Source: Crassaminicella profunda (GTDB lineage Bacteria; Bacillota; Clostridia; Peptostreptococcales; Thermotaleaceae). From it: 64,000 bases of DNA. This document shows positions 2 through 7,787 of this stretch, in pieces (within the stretch, counting starts at the first letter, position 1; the number at the start of each line of letters is the position of its first letter). The notes under the pieces are model-generated. The model saw nothing but the letters and a program-made list of their open reading frames with translations. It had not been told where the DNA came from and made no database searches. The translations under genes were made by a program, and so were the position numbers. The stretch covers positions 861,355 through 925,354 of the forward strand of contig NZ_CP082326.1 in the NCBI RefSeq assembly GCF_019884785.1, given 5' to 3'.

Positions 2-823
2 AGAACGTACACAGGAAAGATTCAATTAGCAGTTTTAGATACTGCTGGAACATTTTGTGATGGACCACAGGACTTAAGAAATCGTTGGCCAGAGGATGAC
101 TTAAGAGGATGTAAAGCACCTGTAGTACCTTTTTATGAAGTATTAAAGAATCACGGTATTGTTTGTGGTTGGAAAGAAATCAGAAAGCCTATGGGTAATT
201 ATAAACCAGTTCATTTACGTAAATTATTTGAGTTACCTGAAGTTACTGAACAATTCAGAAAAATATATGGGCGTGAGTGGACACAAGAAGATGTAGATGC
301 ATATTATGAGGAATTCAAACCTTTAATGAGCAAAGTGATTGTAGATCCAGATTTGGCAAAACCAATTAAAGGTGCTGTTGAATGTATTCAAAAATTAAGA
401 GATGCAGGTATTTATGTTGGATGTGACACAGGGTATGTAGATAAGGATTCAAAGGCGTTAAATAAAGTATTACAAGATACATATGGAATAAAATTTGATG
501 TAGCTACGAACTCAGAGATTGTTCAAGGTCGTCCTAGTCCATTTATGGTATATGATTGTATGGCTAAAGTAAATGTACATAATATTCATTCAGTAGTAAA
601 AATAGATGATACAGCTCCAGGAATGAAATGCGGAAATAATGCAGGATGTTGGACAATAGGTCTTTATGCAACTGGAAGTAATAATTATGATATGTTAGCA
701 GCTTCAAAACCAGATTTCTTAGTTCCTTCAGTAGAATATGTTCCAGATATTATTTTCTATGAAATTGAACCAAGATTGAGAAGAGGCATAAGACCAGGCC
801 AAGGGATTATAGAAACCATTTAA
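2..823 (+). CDS. phnX: Phosphonoacetaldehyde hydrolase, 5' partial
   Basis: HAD-superfamily phosphonatase, which splits phosphonoacetaldehyde into acetaldehyde and phosphate, the second step of AEP breakdown. The reading frame is open from the left edge of the window. The nucleophile motif DTAGT is encoded near base 40, and RKPMG, carrying the Schiff-base lysine of the phosphonatase cap, follows near base 185. Later come TGYVDKDS (motif II region) and KIDDTAPGMK (motif IV acids). An ATG at 191 is in frame, but starting there would remove both catalytic elements, so the true start lies upstream of the window. The nucleophile loop (DTAGTFCDGPQD) is divergent from the classical DWAGT form, so on sequence alone it could be a phosphonatase-like HAD enzyme. 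PhnW 1.6 kb downstream favours PhnX. Confidence 0.85.
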   Translation, partial: RTYTGKIQLAVLDTAGTFCDGPQDLRNRWPEDDLRGCKAPVVPFYEVLKNHGIVCGWKEIRKPMGNYKPVHLRKLFELPEVTEQFRKIYGREWTQEDVDAYYEEFKPLMSKVIVDPDLAKPIKGAVECIQKLRDAGIYVGCDTGYVDKDSKALNKVLQDTYGIKFDVATNSEIVQGRPSPFMVYDCMAKVNVHNIHSVVKIDDTAPGMKCGNNAGCWTIGLYATGSNNYDMLAASKPDFLVPSVEYVPDIIFYEIEPRLRRGIRPGQGIIETI

Positions 824-945
824 GAGCAAGAGACGCATCTATATATTGGAGAAATCAGTTAATAGTGTTTAAAGATTGATAATAGAATCAATTGGTGTTA
901 GGATCATCTCTTATTTATAATAATGATTTTCATAAAATATGTGAG

Positions 946-1014
946 AAAACTCCAGTATCTGTTGTATGAATAACCTAGTGTATAGGTTCATTAAACATAG
1001 TACTGGAGTTTTTT
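946..1014 (+). terminator. Nested hairpin with T-tract after phnX, upstream of the MFS gene
   Basis: A 12-bp stem, AAAACTCCAGTA pairing with TACTGGAGTTTT, encloses a second hairpin, AACCTA with TAGGTT, and runs into a T-tract. It fits an intrinsic terminator. It ends only about 40 bp before the MFS start codon, so it could also be an attenuator in that gene's leader rather than a plain phnX terminator. Confidence 0.7.
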
Positions 1015-1056
1015 AGATATTTTACCCACCATGTTAATGATTAAAGGGGGTATTCT

Positions 1057-2367
1057 ATGTCAAAGGGATTTTTAGGATATACAGAGCAAGAAGCAAAAAA
1101 ATTTAAAAAATATGCTTGGATGGCACTTTTAGGTTTTTCTATTTTATATGCATTTTTGTATAACGGTAGATTGAATATGGGTTTAGCATTACCTATGATG
1201 ATGGAAGAAATGGGATGGACCAAAACACAAGCAGGTTTGCTTTCATCTGTATTATTTTGGACTTATGGATTAGGACATTTGGTGAATGGCCGTTTAGGGG
1301 AGATTTTTGGACCTAAAAAGATTATTTTAGTAGGATTATTATTATCTGCAGGTGCAAATTTAATCATTAGTTTTCAGTCTTCTATTGGTTTGATTGCATT
1401 TTTATGGGCTCTTAATGGATATTTTCAATCTATGCTTTGGTCTCCTGGAATTAGTTTGATTACTAAGTGGTGGCCTAGTCATAAAAGAGGATTTGCTACT
1501 GGATTTGCAAATGGGTTTTCAGGAGTCGCCCAAATTATTGTTTGGTTTAGCGTGCTAGCCTCTATTTCTGCGTTTTCTGATTTAGGTTGGAGAGCGGCTT
1601 TTAGAATCCCTTTGATTAGTATGGTTGCTATGGGGGCTGTATATTGGGTTATGGTTAAAGCAAAACCCAGTGATGTAGGGCTTAAAGATTATGAAGAGGA
1701 AGATGAGGGAACGAAAGAACAAGAAGCAGAGTTACAAAGAATCGTACAAGAACGGGGAAAATTATATCCATATATTCATTTATTTAGTCAATGGAGATTT
1801 ATCATTTGGTGCTTTATCATTGCTATATCCAATATTTCAAGGTATGGGTTACTTACATGGATTCCAACTTATTATGTACAAGAATTAAATATGAATGTAA
1901 AATCAGGAATTTTTAGTTCTGTTGTATTGCCTGTAGGGATGGCCCTAGGAACCTTTATTGTTCCTTGGGCATCAGATAAATTTGGTAAAAATGGACGTTT
2001 ACCAGCAGTGGTAATTTGTGCAATTGTTTCAGCTGTATCTGTATTTATATTTCCAAGTTTAAAAACTTTAGGAACTGCGTCCATTGGATTATTTATTGCA
2101 GGATTCTTTGTGTATGCTATAAATGGTGTAGTTTGGGCTTATTCTACTGATGTAGGAGGGCGTGTATTTGCAGGAACAGCAGCTGGTGTATTAGATTGGG
2201 CAGCTTATATGGGCGCAGCACTACAAGCAATCATATTTGGTAGAGTATTAGATAAAACAGGAAATTGGAATATTGTATTTACTTCTATTGCAGTTATTTG
2301 TGTTTTAATGATGGTTTTGGCATTGATTGCGAATATTAAGCCTAAGAATAAAATAAAAAAAGCTTAA
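1057..2367 (+). CDS. MFS transporter, organophosphate:phosphate antiporter type (probable AEP/phosphonate importer)
   Basis: A 436-residue integral membrane protein with about 12 hydrophobic segments and a charged central loop (about residues 208-230, rich in Glu) between the two six-helix halves. The N-terminal half, with LYAFLYNGRLNMGLALP, GWTKTQAGLLSS and YGLGHLVNGRLGE, resembles the GlpT/UhpT/PgtP organophosphate antiporter family. A good ribosome site (AAAGGGGG) lies 7 bases before the ATG. It sits between phnX and phnW in the same direction, so its likely substrate is 2-aminoethylphosphonate or a related phosphonate. The family is clear. The substrate is inferred from neighbours only. 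Confidence 0.85.
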   Translation: MSKGFLGYTEQEAKKFKKYAWMALLGFSILYAFLYNGRLNMGLALPMMMEEMGWTKTQAGLLSSVLFWTYGLGHLVNGRLGEIFGPKKIILVGLLLSAGANLIISFQSSIGLIAFLWALNGYFQSMLWSPGISLITKWWPSHKRGFATGFANGFSGVAQIIVWFSVLASISAFSDLGWRAAFRIPLISMVAMGAVYWVMVKAKPSDVGLKDYEEEDEGTKEQEAELQRIVQERGKLYPYIHLFSQWRFIIWCFIIAISNISRYGLLTWIPTYYVQELNMNVKSGIFSSVVLPVGMALGTFIVPWASDKFGKNGRLPAVVICAIVSAVSVFIFPSLKTLGTASIGLFIAGFFVYAINGVVWAYSTDVGGRVFAGTAAGVLDWAAYMGAALQAIIFGRVLDKTGNWNIVFTSIAVICVLMMVLALIANIKPKNKIKKA

Positions 2368-2428
2368 ATTACCTTATTCCTTAAGGTAAAGAATAAATAA
2401 TCAAACAATCAAAAAGGGGGATGTTTGA

Positions 2429-3556
2429 ATGTATAAGGTAAAGAGAAATGTATTGTTAAATCCAGGACCTGCAACCACAACAGATACAGTGAAATTTGCT
2501 CAAATTGTACCAGATATTTGTCCTAGGGAAAAAGAATTTGGGGATATTATGTTGAAGATGAGAAATGAGTTAGTGAAAATTGTTCATGGAGATCTTGATA
2601 AGTATACTTCTGTATTATTCTGTGGATCAGGGACTATCAATATTGATGCTTGTGTGAATTCCTTATTGCCAGCAAATAAAAAGATGTTAGTAATCAATAA
2701 TGGTTCTTATAGTGCAAGAGCTGCTGAAGTATGTGAATACTATCATTTACCTCATATTAACCTAAAGTTTCCTATAGATGAAGCATTAGATTTAGAAAAA
2801 GTGAAAAAGGCGTTGAGTGAGGAAAAAGATATTGCAGTAGTATATGCATGTCATCATGAAACAGGTACAGGATTATTAAATCCTATTAGAGAAATAGGAA
2901 AGATTGCTCATGAGTATGGATGTACGTTCATCGTAGATACTACATCAACATATGCTATGATTCCAATTGATATAGAAAAAGACAATGTTGATTTTCTTAT
3001 GGCATCAGCTCAAAAAGGATTAATGTCTATGACAGGACTTTCCTATGTAGTTGGGAATAGAGCATTATTAGAAAAATCTAAGGATTATCCTACTCGTTCT
3101 TATTATACAAATCTTTATATGCAATATAAATTCTTTGAGAAAAAAGGTCAAATGCATTTTACACCACCAGTACAAACGGTTTATGCAACAAATCAAGCCA
3201 TTAAAGAGTATTGGGAAGAAGGAGAAGCGACTAAATGGACTCGTCATAGCAGTGTTTGGAAGGCGCTACATAAGGGATTAGAAAAATTAGGATTCAAAGA
3301 TTTGATTCAACGAGATTTACAGTCAAAGCTTGTGATTTCTGTAAAATATCCCAATGATTCTAAATGGAGCTTTGAAAAAATACATGATTATTTATTTGAA
3401 AGAGGCTTTACCATTTATCCTGGAAAGGTTACGGATACTGAAACATTTAGATTATGTAGTTTAGGAGCAATCAATACATCTGATATTGAAGACTTCTTTG
3501 TGGTACTAGAAGAAGGGCTTAAAGAAATGGGCGTAGTAGTACCTATTCAATATTAA
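2429..3556 (+). CDS. phnW: 2-aminoethylphosphonate:pyruvate aminotransferase
   Basis: A class V PLP-dependent transaminase that converts AEP and pyruvate into phosphonoacetaldehyde and alanine, feeding PhnX. The 375-residue length is normal for PhnW. Visible signatures are the N-terminal LLNPGPATTTDTVK, GSGTINIDACVNSLLP near residue 66, HHETGTGLLNPI near 142, the cofactor-anchoring Asp170 in FIVDTTSTY, and the Schiff-base Lys196 in ASAQKGLMSMTGLS. The start is preceded by AAAGGGGGATG. It is the last gene of the AEP island and is followed by a convergent regulator gene. Confidence is high because both the active-site pattern and the phnX neighbour agree. Confidence 0.93.
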   Translation: MYKVKRNVLLNPGPATTTDTVKFAQIVPDICPREKEFGDIMLKMRNELVKIVHGDLDKYTSVLFCGSGTINIDACVNSLLPANKKMLVINNGSYSARAAEVCEYYHLPHINLKFPIDEALDLEKVKKALSEEKDIAVVYACHHETGTGLLNPIREIGKIAHEYGCTFIVDTTSTYAMIPIDIEKDNVDFLMASAQKGLMSMTGLSYVVGNRALLEKSKDYPTRSYYTNLYMQYKFFEKKGQMHFTPPVQTVYATNQAIKEYWEEGEATKWTRHSSVWKALHKGLEKLGFKDLIQRDLQSKLVISVKYPNDSKWSFEKIHDYLFERGFTIYPGKVTDTETFRLCSLGAINTSDIEDFFVVLEEGLKEMGVVVPIQY

Positions 3557-5506: not shown

Positions 5507-5749
5507 ATGGATTATTTAAGTGTTATGAGTATAAGAGTAGACCATAGAAAAGATTCTGCTCCTCGCATGCAGGAGATTTTAACCCAAAACGGAGATATTA
5601 TTGTTGGTAGATTAGGTATTCATGATCCAGATGAAGTCAATCATGGTTTGATTACATTAAATTTAAGATCAGATATGGGTAGAATAAACAATATGATGGA
5701 TCAACTAAGTGGACTTGAAGGAATAAAAGTAAATCATATGCAAGCATAG
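5507..5749 (+). CDS. TM1266-type iron-only hydrogenase system regulator (ACT-like small protein)
   Basis: An 80-residue protein of the TM1266/TIGR03959 family, small ferredoxin-fold (NikR C-terminal/ACT-like) proteins found with [FeFe]-hydrogenase genes and thought to be regulatory. The diagnostic block is NGDIIVGRLGI at about residues 23-33, followed by a compact beta-alpha-beta ending in LEGIKVNHM. The ATG used here has a strong AGGAGG at 7-8 bases. An upstream in-frame start at 5465 lacks one and adds a tail unlike the family. No hydrogenase maturation genes are adjacent, so the target cannot be read from context. Confidence 0.85.
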   Translation: MDYLSVMSIRVDHRKDSAPRMQEILTQNGDIIVGRLGIHDPDEVNHGLITLNLRSDMGRINNMMDQLSGLEGIKVNHMQA

Positions 5750-5750
5750 T

Positions 5751-5785
5751 AAAAGGCAGATGTTTTTTCATCTGCCTTTATTTTG
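5751..5785. terminator. Bidirectional terminator
   Basis: An 11-bp perfect stem (AAAGGCAGATG with CATCTGCCTTT) with A-rich and T-rich flanks on both sides. It serves the small regulator on the plus strand and the convergent PFL-family gene. Confidence 0.85.
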
Positions 5786-5787
5786 TC

Positions 5788-7155
5788 TTAATTTTTGAAG
5801 CTATGAACAGGGGCAGGGATTCTTCCTCCCCTATTGATAAAATCAGCACTACTAAATTTACTTACACGCATAATAGGAGCACTTCCTAAAAGACCTCCGA
5901 ATTCTACTTCATCTCCTAGGGTCTTTCCATAAACAGGAATAATCCTTACAGCAGTAGTTTTGTGGTTGATCACCCCAATGGCTGCTTCATCAGCAATCAT
6001 TCCGGAGATAGTAGTATCAGGTGTGTCTCCAGGAATTGCAATCATATCAAGACCTACAGAGCATACACATGTCATGGCTTCTAGTTTTTCGATATTTAGT
6101 GAACCTGTCTTTACAGCATGAATCATTCCTTCATCTTCGCTGACAGGAATAAATGCACCACTAAGACCTCCTACATGAGAGGATGCCATAATACCGCCCT
6201 TTTTAACTGCATCGTTTAAAAGAGCTAAAGCTGCTGTTGTACCATGTCCTCCACATCTTTCAATTCCCATTTCTTCAAAAATTCTTGCTACACTATCGCC
6301 TACAGCAGGAGTTGGGGCAAGGGATAAATCCAAAATTCCAAAGGGAACGTTTAGTCTATTTGAAGCTTCCTTAGCTACTAATTGACCAACTCTTGTTATT
6401 TTAAATGCAGTTTTCTTAATGGTTTCAGCAACTACATCAAAGGGGGCACCTTGTACTTTTTCAAGGGCTGATTTTATAACACCAGGACCACTTACACCTA
6501 CATTTATAACAGATTCTCCTTCTCCAACCCCGTGGAAAGCTCCGGCCATAAAAGGATTGTCTTCTACAGCATTGGCAAAAACAACTAGTTTTGCACATCC
6601 GATGCTTTCTTGATCTTTTGTAAGGAAAGCTGTCTGTTTAATGATTTTTCCCATATCACGAACTGCATCCATATTAATTCCAGATTTGGTATCTCCAATA
6701 TTTACGGAAGAGCATACTCTTTCTGTAACAGATAGAGCTTCAGGAATGGAATTGATTAAAATTTTGTCTCCTTTTGAATAGCCTTTTTGAACAAGGGCTG
6801 AAAAACCACCAATAAAGTTAACCCCTACGGCTTTTGCGGCTGCATCAAGTGTTTTTGCAAATTCAACATAGTTTTGATCGTTACTTGTTTGTGCAATTAA
6901 AGAAATAGGTGTTACAGAAATTCTTTTATTGATAATAGGAATGCCTAGTTCTGCTTCAATATCTTCTCCTACCTTTACAAGATTTTCTGCATATCTTGTG
7001 ATTTTATCGTAAATTTTAATTCTTGATTGTTTTCCATCTGTGTGAGCACAGTCTAATAAGGATATACCCATGGTGATAGTTCGAATATCTAATTTTTCTT
7101 TTTCAATCATTTGAATAGTTTCCATTATATTTTTAAATTTACTCAAAGGAATCAT
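5788..7155 (-). CDS. PFL (DUF711/UPF0210) family protein
   Basis: A 455-residue member of the DUF711/UPF0210 family, proteins with a pyruvate-formate-lyase-like fold and no settled function. Recognisable blocks are [52 protein letters not shown] and [20 protein letters not shown]. It lies 6 bp downstream of a small ACT-domain gene; together they are a conserved UPF0237/UPF0210 pair. A glycine riboswitch stands in front of the pair. That makes a role tied to glycine or one-carbon flux likely for this copy, but the reaction is unknown. The start ATG follows GGAGATGATTC. Confidence 0.92.
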
Positions 7156-7161
7156 CTCCTA

Positions 7162-7443
7162 CTATGAAATTTTGTGCATAGAATCAAATATATCTTCATG
7201 TTGTATTTTGATAGAAAGGCCTATGTCTTTACCAACTTTTTCAAGTTCCTTTTTTATATCATTGAAGCTACTTTTCATTTTAGATAAATCCACAATCATG
7301 ATCATGGTAAAGTAATCCTGTAAAATAGTTTGGCTAATATCTAGGATATTCATACTATTTTCCGCTAAAGTACAAGTAACTTTTGCGATGATTCCTATTT
7401 GATCCTTTCCTATTACTGTGACAACTGCTTTCATAAAATTCAT
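7162..7443 (-). CDS. ACT domain protein (UPF0237)
   Basis: A 93-residue single ACT domain. The beta-alpha-beta core starts with AVVTVIGKDQIGIIAKVT and continues NSMNILDISQTILQDYFTM, the typical amino-acid-binding ACT pattern as in GcvR-like proteins. The start has a GAGGAGATG context. It is the first gene behind the glycine riboswitch and is followed at 6 bp by the PFL-family gene. It may sense an amino acid, probably glycine, and regulate its PFL-family partner. That role is inference from family and riboswitch. Confidence 0.9.
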   Translation of the reverse strand: MNFMKAVVTVIGKDQIGIIAKVTCTLAENSMNILDISQTILQDYFTMIMIVDLSKMKSSFNDIKKELEKVGKDIGLSIKIQHEDIFDSMHKIS

Positions 7444-7496
7444 CTCCTCTTTTAATTCGTGTTTGCATATGAAATATTGATTATTTTAATATAAAT

Positions 7497-7528
7497 AAAA
7501 AAGAGACTAAATCGATTGATTTGTCTCT
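7497..7528 (-). terminator. Terminator hairpin of the glycine riboswitch expression platform
   Basis: Minus-strand hairpin AGAGACAAATC...GATTTAGTCTCT followed by six or more T, placed between the glycine aptamer and the ACT gene. The position fits transcription termination when glycine is low and read-through when it is bound. Confidence 0.8.
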
Positions 7529-7618
7529 GGAAAGCAAGATTATAAATGAAAGAAAATCTTATATTTTTATTATGCGTCCATAACAAAAAATAAATAGTCT
7601 TTTGCAATCAATAATCCC

Positions 7619-7699
7619 CTGTCCTTTTACCTGAGAGTTTCACCACGTAAGTGGCTTTCCCCTTCGGTGCTCTTTAGAGTCTCTCCAGAGGCCCGTCCA
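7619..7699 (-). promoter_or_regulatory. Glycine riboswitch (single aptamer seen)
   Basis: On the minus strand the conserved elements occur in order: GGACGGGCCTCTGGAGAG, then GAGCACCGAAGGGG, then ACTCTCAGGTAAAAGGACAG. These are the glycine aptamer consensus blocks (CUGGAGAG, CACCGAAGG, CUCAGGUAAAAGGAC). Only one complete aptamer is visible; the second half of the usual tandem is absent or reduced to flanking stem sequence. It controls the downstream ACT and PFL genes through the terminator at 7497-7528. Confidence 0.93.
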
Positions 7700-7757
7700 A
7701 TAACAGTCGAAAAAATCTTCCACTATCTTCAACCGGCACTATGAAATTATGTAAAAC

Positions 7758-7787
7758 ATTGTAACATAATTATAGGATAAAAAGCAA
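7758..7787 (-). promoter_or_regulatory. Probable sigma-A promoter of the riboswitch transcript
   Basis: Minus-strand TTGCTT and TACAAT separated by 18 bases, roughly 60 bases upstream of the aptamer. Position and spacing fit, but the -35 element is imperfect. Confidence 0.5.

Follow-up and report, generated by a model that had tools for sequence, protein, structure and literature searches.

A glycine riboswitch of the type-2 singlet class, probably an OFF switch, precedes the UPF0237 (ACT)–UPF0210 gene pair in Crassaminicella profunda and related bacteria

Survey passages place glycine riboswitches upstream of genes for glycine metabolism, transport and serine (PMC3766115, PMC2211319, PMC6944388), and a passage on Clostridioides difficile describes the same distribution (PMC11477304). 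Single-aptamer cases preceding another uncharacterized family, COG4198, are mentioned in the text of Kazanov 2007 (PMC2211319). A ghost aptamer on the 5′ side is given as the defining trait of type-2 singlets in the relevant section of PMC6944388. For one Streptococcus pyogenes symporter riboswitch, the corresponding account reports measurements in which high glycine represses (PMC5829553). Our literature search found no report linking glycine riboswitches to UPF0210 or UPF0237, an entry in a survey's supplementary table being possible; the kind of element described here is already known, and what appears new is the genes under its control and the sign predicted for it. In a phylum-wide sample, 234 of 398 genomes contained a DUF711/UPF0210 protein, as did 5 of 14 controls; three of these five are archaea, and Lactococcus lactis is also among them. 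The 2HA9 structure has been public since 2006, and Pfam and NCBIfam still name the UPF0210 family as uncharacterised only. We propose that in C. profunda a type-2 singlet glycine riboswitch is likely to act as a transcriptional OFF switch of a two-gene operon composed of UPF0237 (ACT) and UPF0210.

In the window, the 64-kb stretch of C. profunda DNA that was analysed, the pair and its leader lie on the minus strand. The UPF0210/DUF711 gene ("PFL family"; 5788–7155, 455 aa from its ATG) passed the family models DUF711 (PF05167, 667.4 bits) and NF003700 (782.3 bits). Upstream of it, the ACT/UPF0237 gene (7162–7443, 93 aa from the first ATG) scored 129.3 bits against NF001220 (cut-off 74), which places it in UPF0237, and 55.5 bits against Pfam ACT_6. 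Judged by eye from ribosome-site spacing, the likelier starts are an ATG at 7434 for the ACT gene (90 aa) and a TTG at 7146 for UPF0210. The leader contains a glycine riboswitch aptamer at 7698–7609, ligand-binding by family, which matched RF00504 over its full length (model positions 1–94) with 65.3 bits and an E-value of 2.7e-11, above the gathering score of 32, and was the sole Rfam match at the gathering threshold in the window. An intrinsic terminator hairpin is located at 7502–7528, with a T run at 7501–7497; the stock terminator scan listed nothing at 7528–7502, probably because the stem is imperfect. A sequence-only reading of this DNA had claimed a glycine aptamer and a terminator in front of an ACT/UPF0210 pair, and the aptamer score, the hairpin and the family models bear this out. 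A promoter-like TTGCTT-18-TACAAT at 7758–7787 was recognized by eye only and was not reported by the promoter scan. The genome as a whole carries one DUF711 gene and six glycine aptamers. Convergent with UPF0210 lies a gene for a TM1266/CPF_0552-like small protein (5507–5785), and the hairpin between the two, with T runs on both sides, resembles by eye a shared bidirectional terminator. Elsewhere in the window (191–3556), genes for a phosphonatase-like HAD protein (below the family cut-off), an MFS transporter and a 2-aminoethylphosphonate aminotransferase stand in a row, and probably serve 2-aminoethylphosphonate use.

With respect to ligand-binding domains, the earlier remark that only one aptamer is visible is correct; a ghost aptamer with covarying helices is also present on the 5′ side of that domain. 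The ghost, consisting of an outer CCG/CGG helix and an inner stem, occupies 7693–7736. In an alignment of 21 leaders, the three pairs of the outer helix were UA in 11 and CG in 8, CG in 17 and UA in 3, and GC in 19 and CG in 2, respectively; compensated changes were also observed in the inner stem, and double changes were found at 11 of the 34 predicted ghost pairs. With this ghost on the 5′ side of a single aptamer, and with no second RF00504 match adjoining, the element is by its sequence a type-2 singlet glycine riboswitch. Set beside the tandem riboswitch of the symporter gene in the same genome, the ghost resembles in sequence the basal part of a first aptamer that has collapsed. A model of ghost plus aptamer (R2) scored 166.4 bits on the window (7763–7609), whose copy was among the rows used to build the model, 109.2 bits on the C. 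profunda symporter leader and 46.6–80.3 bits on grd/gcvT leaders. When the window aptamer was compared with the five other aptamers of the genome, the second aptamer of the symporter was the closest (0.76 vs 0.49–0.68).

The strand predicted to switch, composed of the 5′ strand of P1 and the glycine-binding junction J1/2 (CTCTGGAGA, 7682–7690), has its best complementary site in the downstream leader at 7525–7533 (TTTCCAGAG), a candidate antiterminator site that overlaps the 5′ arm of the terminator. In the minimum free energy fold of the pre-terminator leader (7736–7511), 7525–7533 pairs with 7682–7690 (z −4.12). We gathered 38 leaders and removed two second copies from the same genomes, which left 36 ACT leaders. 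In 31 of these, the best downstream site complementary to the P1 5′ strand and J1/2 overlapped the 5′ arm of the terminator, in L162 at the loop edge only; in L031 the site lies at the true hairpin, the script having taken another, and in L016, L153 and L180 the best site lay elsewhere than the terminator arm. Of 100 shuffled versions, five at most equalled the energy of the best site in 27 of the 36 leaders. When the pairing was scored as a register of ten pairs, with starts set by hand for L031, L050 and L026 (the script had picked another hairpin in the first two), 307 of 360 pairs could form over the 36 leaders, compared with 53–62% at slid positions treated alike. Pairing was poor in L153 and L179 (6/10) and in L020, L045, L162, L164 and L180 (7/10). 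In Clostridium frigoris (L088), the aptamer strand reads CCCTTGG and the site co-varies with it at two pairs, so that the changes are compensated. The base-pair probability of the antiterminator was at least 0.5 in 30 of the 36 leaders and lower in L031 and L050, for which the script took another hairpin, and in L088, L164, L179 and L180; with a second terminator finder, which chose different hairpins in several leaders, 22 of the 36 reached 0.5. L016 has another site, upstream of the terminator (L016:1043–1054), whose complementarity to the aptamer strand is stronger.

Both GcvR and PurU are glycine-responsive, and acetohydroxyacid synthase is an example of an enzyme under the control of a small ACT subunit. 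The closest solved structure for the ACT protein was 1ZPV (E 1.8e-19). A profile of seven ACT proteins matched, after its own family and 2NYI, SerB and GcvR (1U8S) with E-values of about 2.5e-6 and, weakly, the ACT domain of the RelA/SpoT GTP pyrophosphokinase and PurU (E 0.006–0.04); the GcvR model itself gave 23.8 bits on the window ACT protein, below its cut-off of 267. For UPF0210, the only solved homologue found by sequence was SP0239 (2HA9, E 3.5e-202). The predicted structure (pLDDT 89.4) has a barrel of the ribonucleotide reductase (RNR) type and matched 2HA9 with a Z score of 55.1; among the matches listed, RNR chains scored Z 12.9–15.4 over 324–371 residues and class III RNR had an E-value of 3.6e-4. 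The model thus points to the ten-stranded barrel fold of RNR and PFL, PFL itself not being among the matches listed, and the structural grouping described in a passage of PMC4390871 agrees with the RNR-barrel match. Over 55 UPF0210 proteins, 129 columns were invariant and mean column identity was 80%. Glycyl radical enzymes carry the motif RVxG[FWY], and these enzymes and RNR have a catalytic cysteine in a central finger loop. The motif was found in 0 of the 55 proteins, and none of the 55 had a cysteine in the central loop (195–214), which was equated with the finger loop by order of elements only; Cys148 and Cys365 were invariant in 55/55. Therefore, PFL-type radical chemistry is unlikely, and UPF0210 as a glycyl radical enzyme was dropped as a candidate. 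In the part of PMC4390871 that treats SP0239, no radical glycine was found either. The Corynebacterium diphtheriae UPF0210 protein is described as S-mycothiolated at Cys324 (passage in PMC5504048); among the UPF0210 proteins analysed here, no cysteine is conserved at the corresponding position.

These protein data bear on an alternative in which the pair is regulatory, with the ACT protein sensing glycine as GcvR does and UPF0210, as the effector, tuning the uptake of glycine or the flow of one-carbon units. The profile match to GcvR and the lack of both the radical motif and the central-loop cysteine in 55/55 UPF0210 proteins would fit such a pair, but the conservation of UPF0210, on a barrel shared with RNR, resembles that of an active site, and we regard this alternative as possible but doubtful. 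The ACT gene lay directly before the DUF711 gene, or in the fetched upstream stretch, at 176 of 177 loci with or without the switch: of the 140 loci whose stretch included DUF711, tblastn placed it directly upstream at 139, the exception being L079, and it was found in 37/37 upstream stretches. In the neighbour analysis, for which the script found DUF711 at 103 of 110 loci and a simple gene caller saw the ACT gene directly upstream at 76 of these 103, the largest recurrent cluster of operon neighbours comprised only 5 of the 103 loci; therefore, the context names no pathway, and a role in glycine supply draws no support from the neighbourhood. At L091 and L113, aspartate kinase and homoserine genes, named by eye, were located upstream.

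To what extent the riboswitch accompanies the pair was surveyed in 148 genomes of the order, of which 115 had glycine aptamers and 68 had DUF711 above the cut-off; setting aside one truncated gene (G032), we obtained 67 DUF711 loci that were complete and had upstream sequence. An aptamer was located upstream of the ACT gene at 30 of the 67, namely at 10/10, 7/8, 8/9, 3/3 and 2/2 loci in families f1, f2, f3, f6 and f12 (30/32 in these five), and at 0 of 35 loci in f4, f5, f9, f10 and f11. In named genomes, 8 of the 80 best-matching relatives had the aptamer: Maledivibacter and Anaerophilus, which are also counted among the order's 30, Clostridium akagii DSM 12554 and three other Clostridium species, Alkalibaculum and one Bacillota genome; weak matches of model R1 at L063 (E 0.4) and L114 (E 0.63) were left uncounted. 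The sequence-only reading had named a riboswitch unique to this genome as something that would count against it; the arrangement recurs, at 30/67 loci of the order and 8/80 named loci, so this objection falls away. No aptamer preceded the pair at the 30 best-scoring loci of the phylum-wide sample, and together with 0/35 in five families and 72 of 80 named loci lacking the switch, this indicates that control by glycine is not a built-in property of the UPF0210 family. A comparison of 49 switch-less loci (9 + 20 + 20) with Rfam revealed neither a riboswitch nor a leader element on the sense strand ahead of the pair; two TPP elements and one THF element were seen on the opposite strand, and 6S RNA was seen downstream at L021 and L028. 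The THF riboswitch at L121:538–638 lies on the strand opposite ACT–UPF0210, before a possible divergent one-carbon gene. Separately, the 2.0-Mb genome G143 contained 15 glycine aptamer matches (C27:125622–126462 and elsewhere), three of them within 850 bases.

On a tree of 55 DUF711 proteins, 20 of them from loci with the switch, presence of the switch required 4 changes, compared with 16.5 for shuffled labels. This reads as an association that arose early in one clade and was later lost in places, with perhaps one separate gain, in C. frigoris. Confinement to a part of the tree is also what would be expected if the switch had been recruited from a symporter leader and served one clade, the substrate of the pair being unrelated to glycine. 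The likeness of the window aptamer to the second aptamer of the symporter, and the many UPF0210 loci, most of those examined, without a switch, agree with recruitment. On the other hand, the switch is kept at nearly all loci of the five families with a covarying ghost and antiterminator, and in the Alkalibaculum genome no glycine aptamer other than the one before the pair was found. Recruitment with an unrelated substrate is therefore judged unlikely.

Returning to the proposed OFF switch, its sign was compared with a calibration set of 20 hand-picked leaders plus the grd and symporter leaders of C. profunda. Among the grd/gcvT leaders of this set, 12 of 17 were analysable, and in 12/12 of these the 3′ strand of P1 lay inside the terminator (ON layout), as against 0/5 symporter and 0/36 ACT leaders. 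Conversely, an antiterminator probability of at least 0.5 was obtained for 4/5 symporter leaders and 0/12 grd/gcvT leaders. The window leader has a separate terminator whose 5′ arm is able to pair with the P1 5′ strand, as expected of an OFF-type switch. That the switch is instead turned on by glycine, inducing a pair that breaks down or detoxifies it, is very unlikely: operons for glycine catabolism in the same genomes, among them the GrdX-led operon of C. profunda, do have glycine riboswitches, but the ON layout was seen in the 12 analysed grd/gcvT leaders and in none of the 36 ACT leaders, and the pairing of the aptamer strand with the terminator arm predicts OFF. The parts of the leader, their conservation, the complementarity and the contrast with ON-type leaders can be read from the sequences directly. 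A further glycine riboswitch with the P1 3′ strand inside the terminator, judged by eye, was noticed in C. profunda (L009:856–1246) and at L208:1250–1590; it is followed only by a 28-aa ORF, hydrophobic and with a ribosome site, and a second terminator. One congener shows the same arrangement, with a peptide 68% identical, and among 40 genomes searched matches occurred in C. profunda and one other.

Considering the pairing with the terminator arm, the contrast within the calibration set and the repression measured in S. pyogenes, an OFF-type switch is the best reading of the window leader. The leader folds carry no glycine-binding term, the sign being taken from sequence; from it we infer that the RNA binds glycine and that the switch has this sign in the cell. 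When glycine is scarce, the P1 5′ strand and J1/2 would pair with the site at the terminator 5′ arm, and this antiterminator would block formation of the terminator and allow the operon to be transcribed. When glycine is plentiful, the aptamer would fold, the terminator arm would be freed and transcription would end early. The ACT protein may supply extra feedback at the protein level.

The OFF sign suggests that the function of the pair is needed when glycine is scarce, which argues against glycine catabolism; likewise, because the layout resembles that of symporter and not of catabolism leaders, a glycine-consuming protein is unlikely, and supply or sparing fits better. The sequence-only reading had the PFL-family protein working on glycine or a compound derived from it. 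The link to glycine is strengthened by the recurrence and by the ACT relatives SerB and GcvR, but not a role in using glycine up, given the symporter-type layout. We tentatively suggest a role in supplying or sparing glycine in which UPF0210 would be the catalytic partner and the ACT protein its glycine-responsive subunit, the end product exerting control on both RNA and protein. The more specific form, in which a non-radical RNR-barrel UPF0210 makes, recovers or spares glycine and UPF0237 is its glycine-sensing subunit, so that glycine would shut a supply route at both levels, is rather doubtful. As a whole, a recurring glycine switch of predicted OFF type and an ACT partner would connect the widespread UPF0210 family with glycine homeostasis and indicate the direction of control, and the glycine link offers a concrete lead to the function of this uncharacterised family.

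Among known systems, the type-2 singlets of transporter genes, as presented in part of Crum et al. 2019 (PMC6944388), likewise consist of one aptamer and a 5′ ghost, and the window aptamer resembles the second aptamer of a symporter; those singlets precede transporters, whereas the window element precedes ACT/UPF0237 and UPF0210. The glycine-responsive regulator GcvR has an ACT domain related to that of UPF0237, but UPF0237 is a single short ACT protein paired with UPF0210. SP0239, the UPF0210 protein of Streptococcus pneumoniae (2HA9), has the same fold and is 66–69% identical in structural alignments; in contrast to the window, the two Streptococcus loci examined (L097 and L117) lack a glycine aptamer upstream of the pair. 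In the agcS symporter leader of the same genome (L008; TIGR00835), the terminator flank TTTCTAGAGGCC is likewise complementary to the P1 strand and P1 lies outside the terminator, as in the window leader, but that leader has two ligand-binding aptamers and serves a transporter gene.
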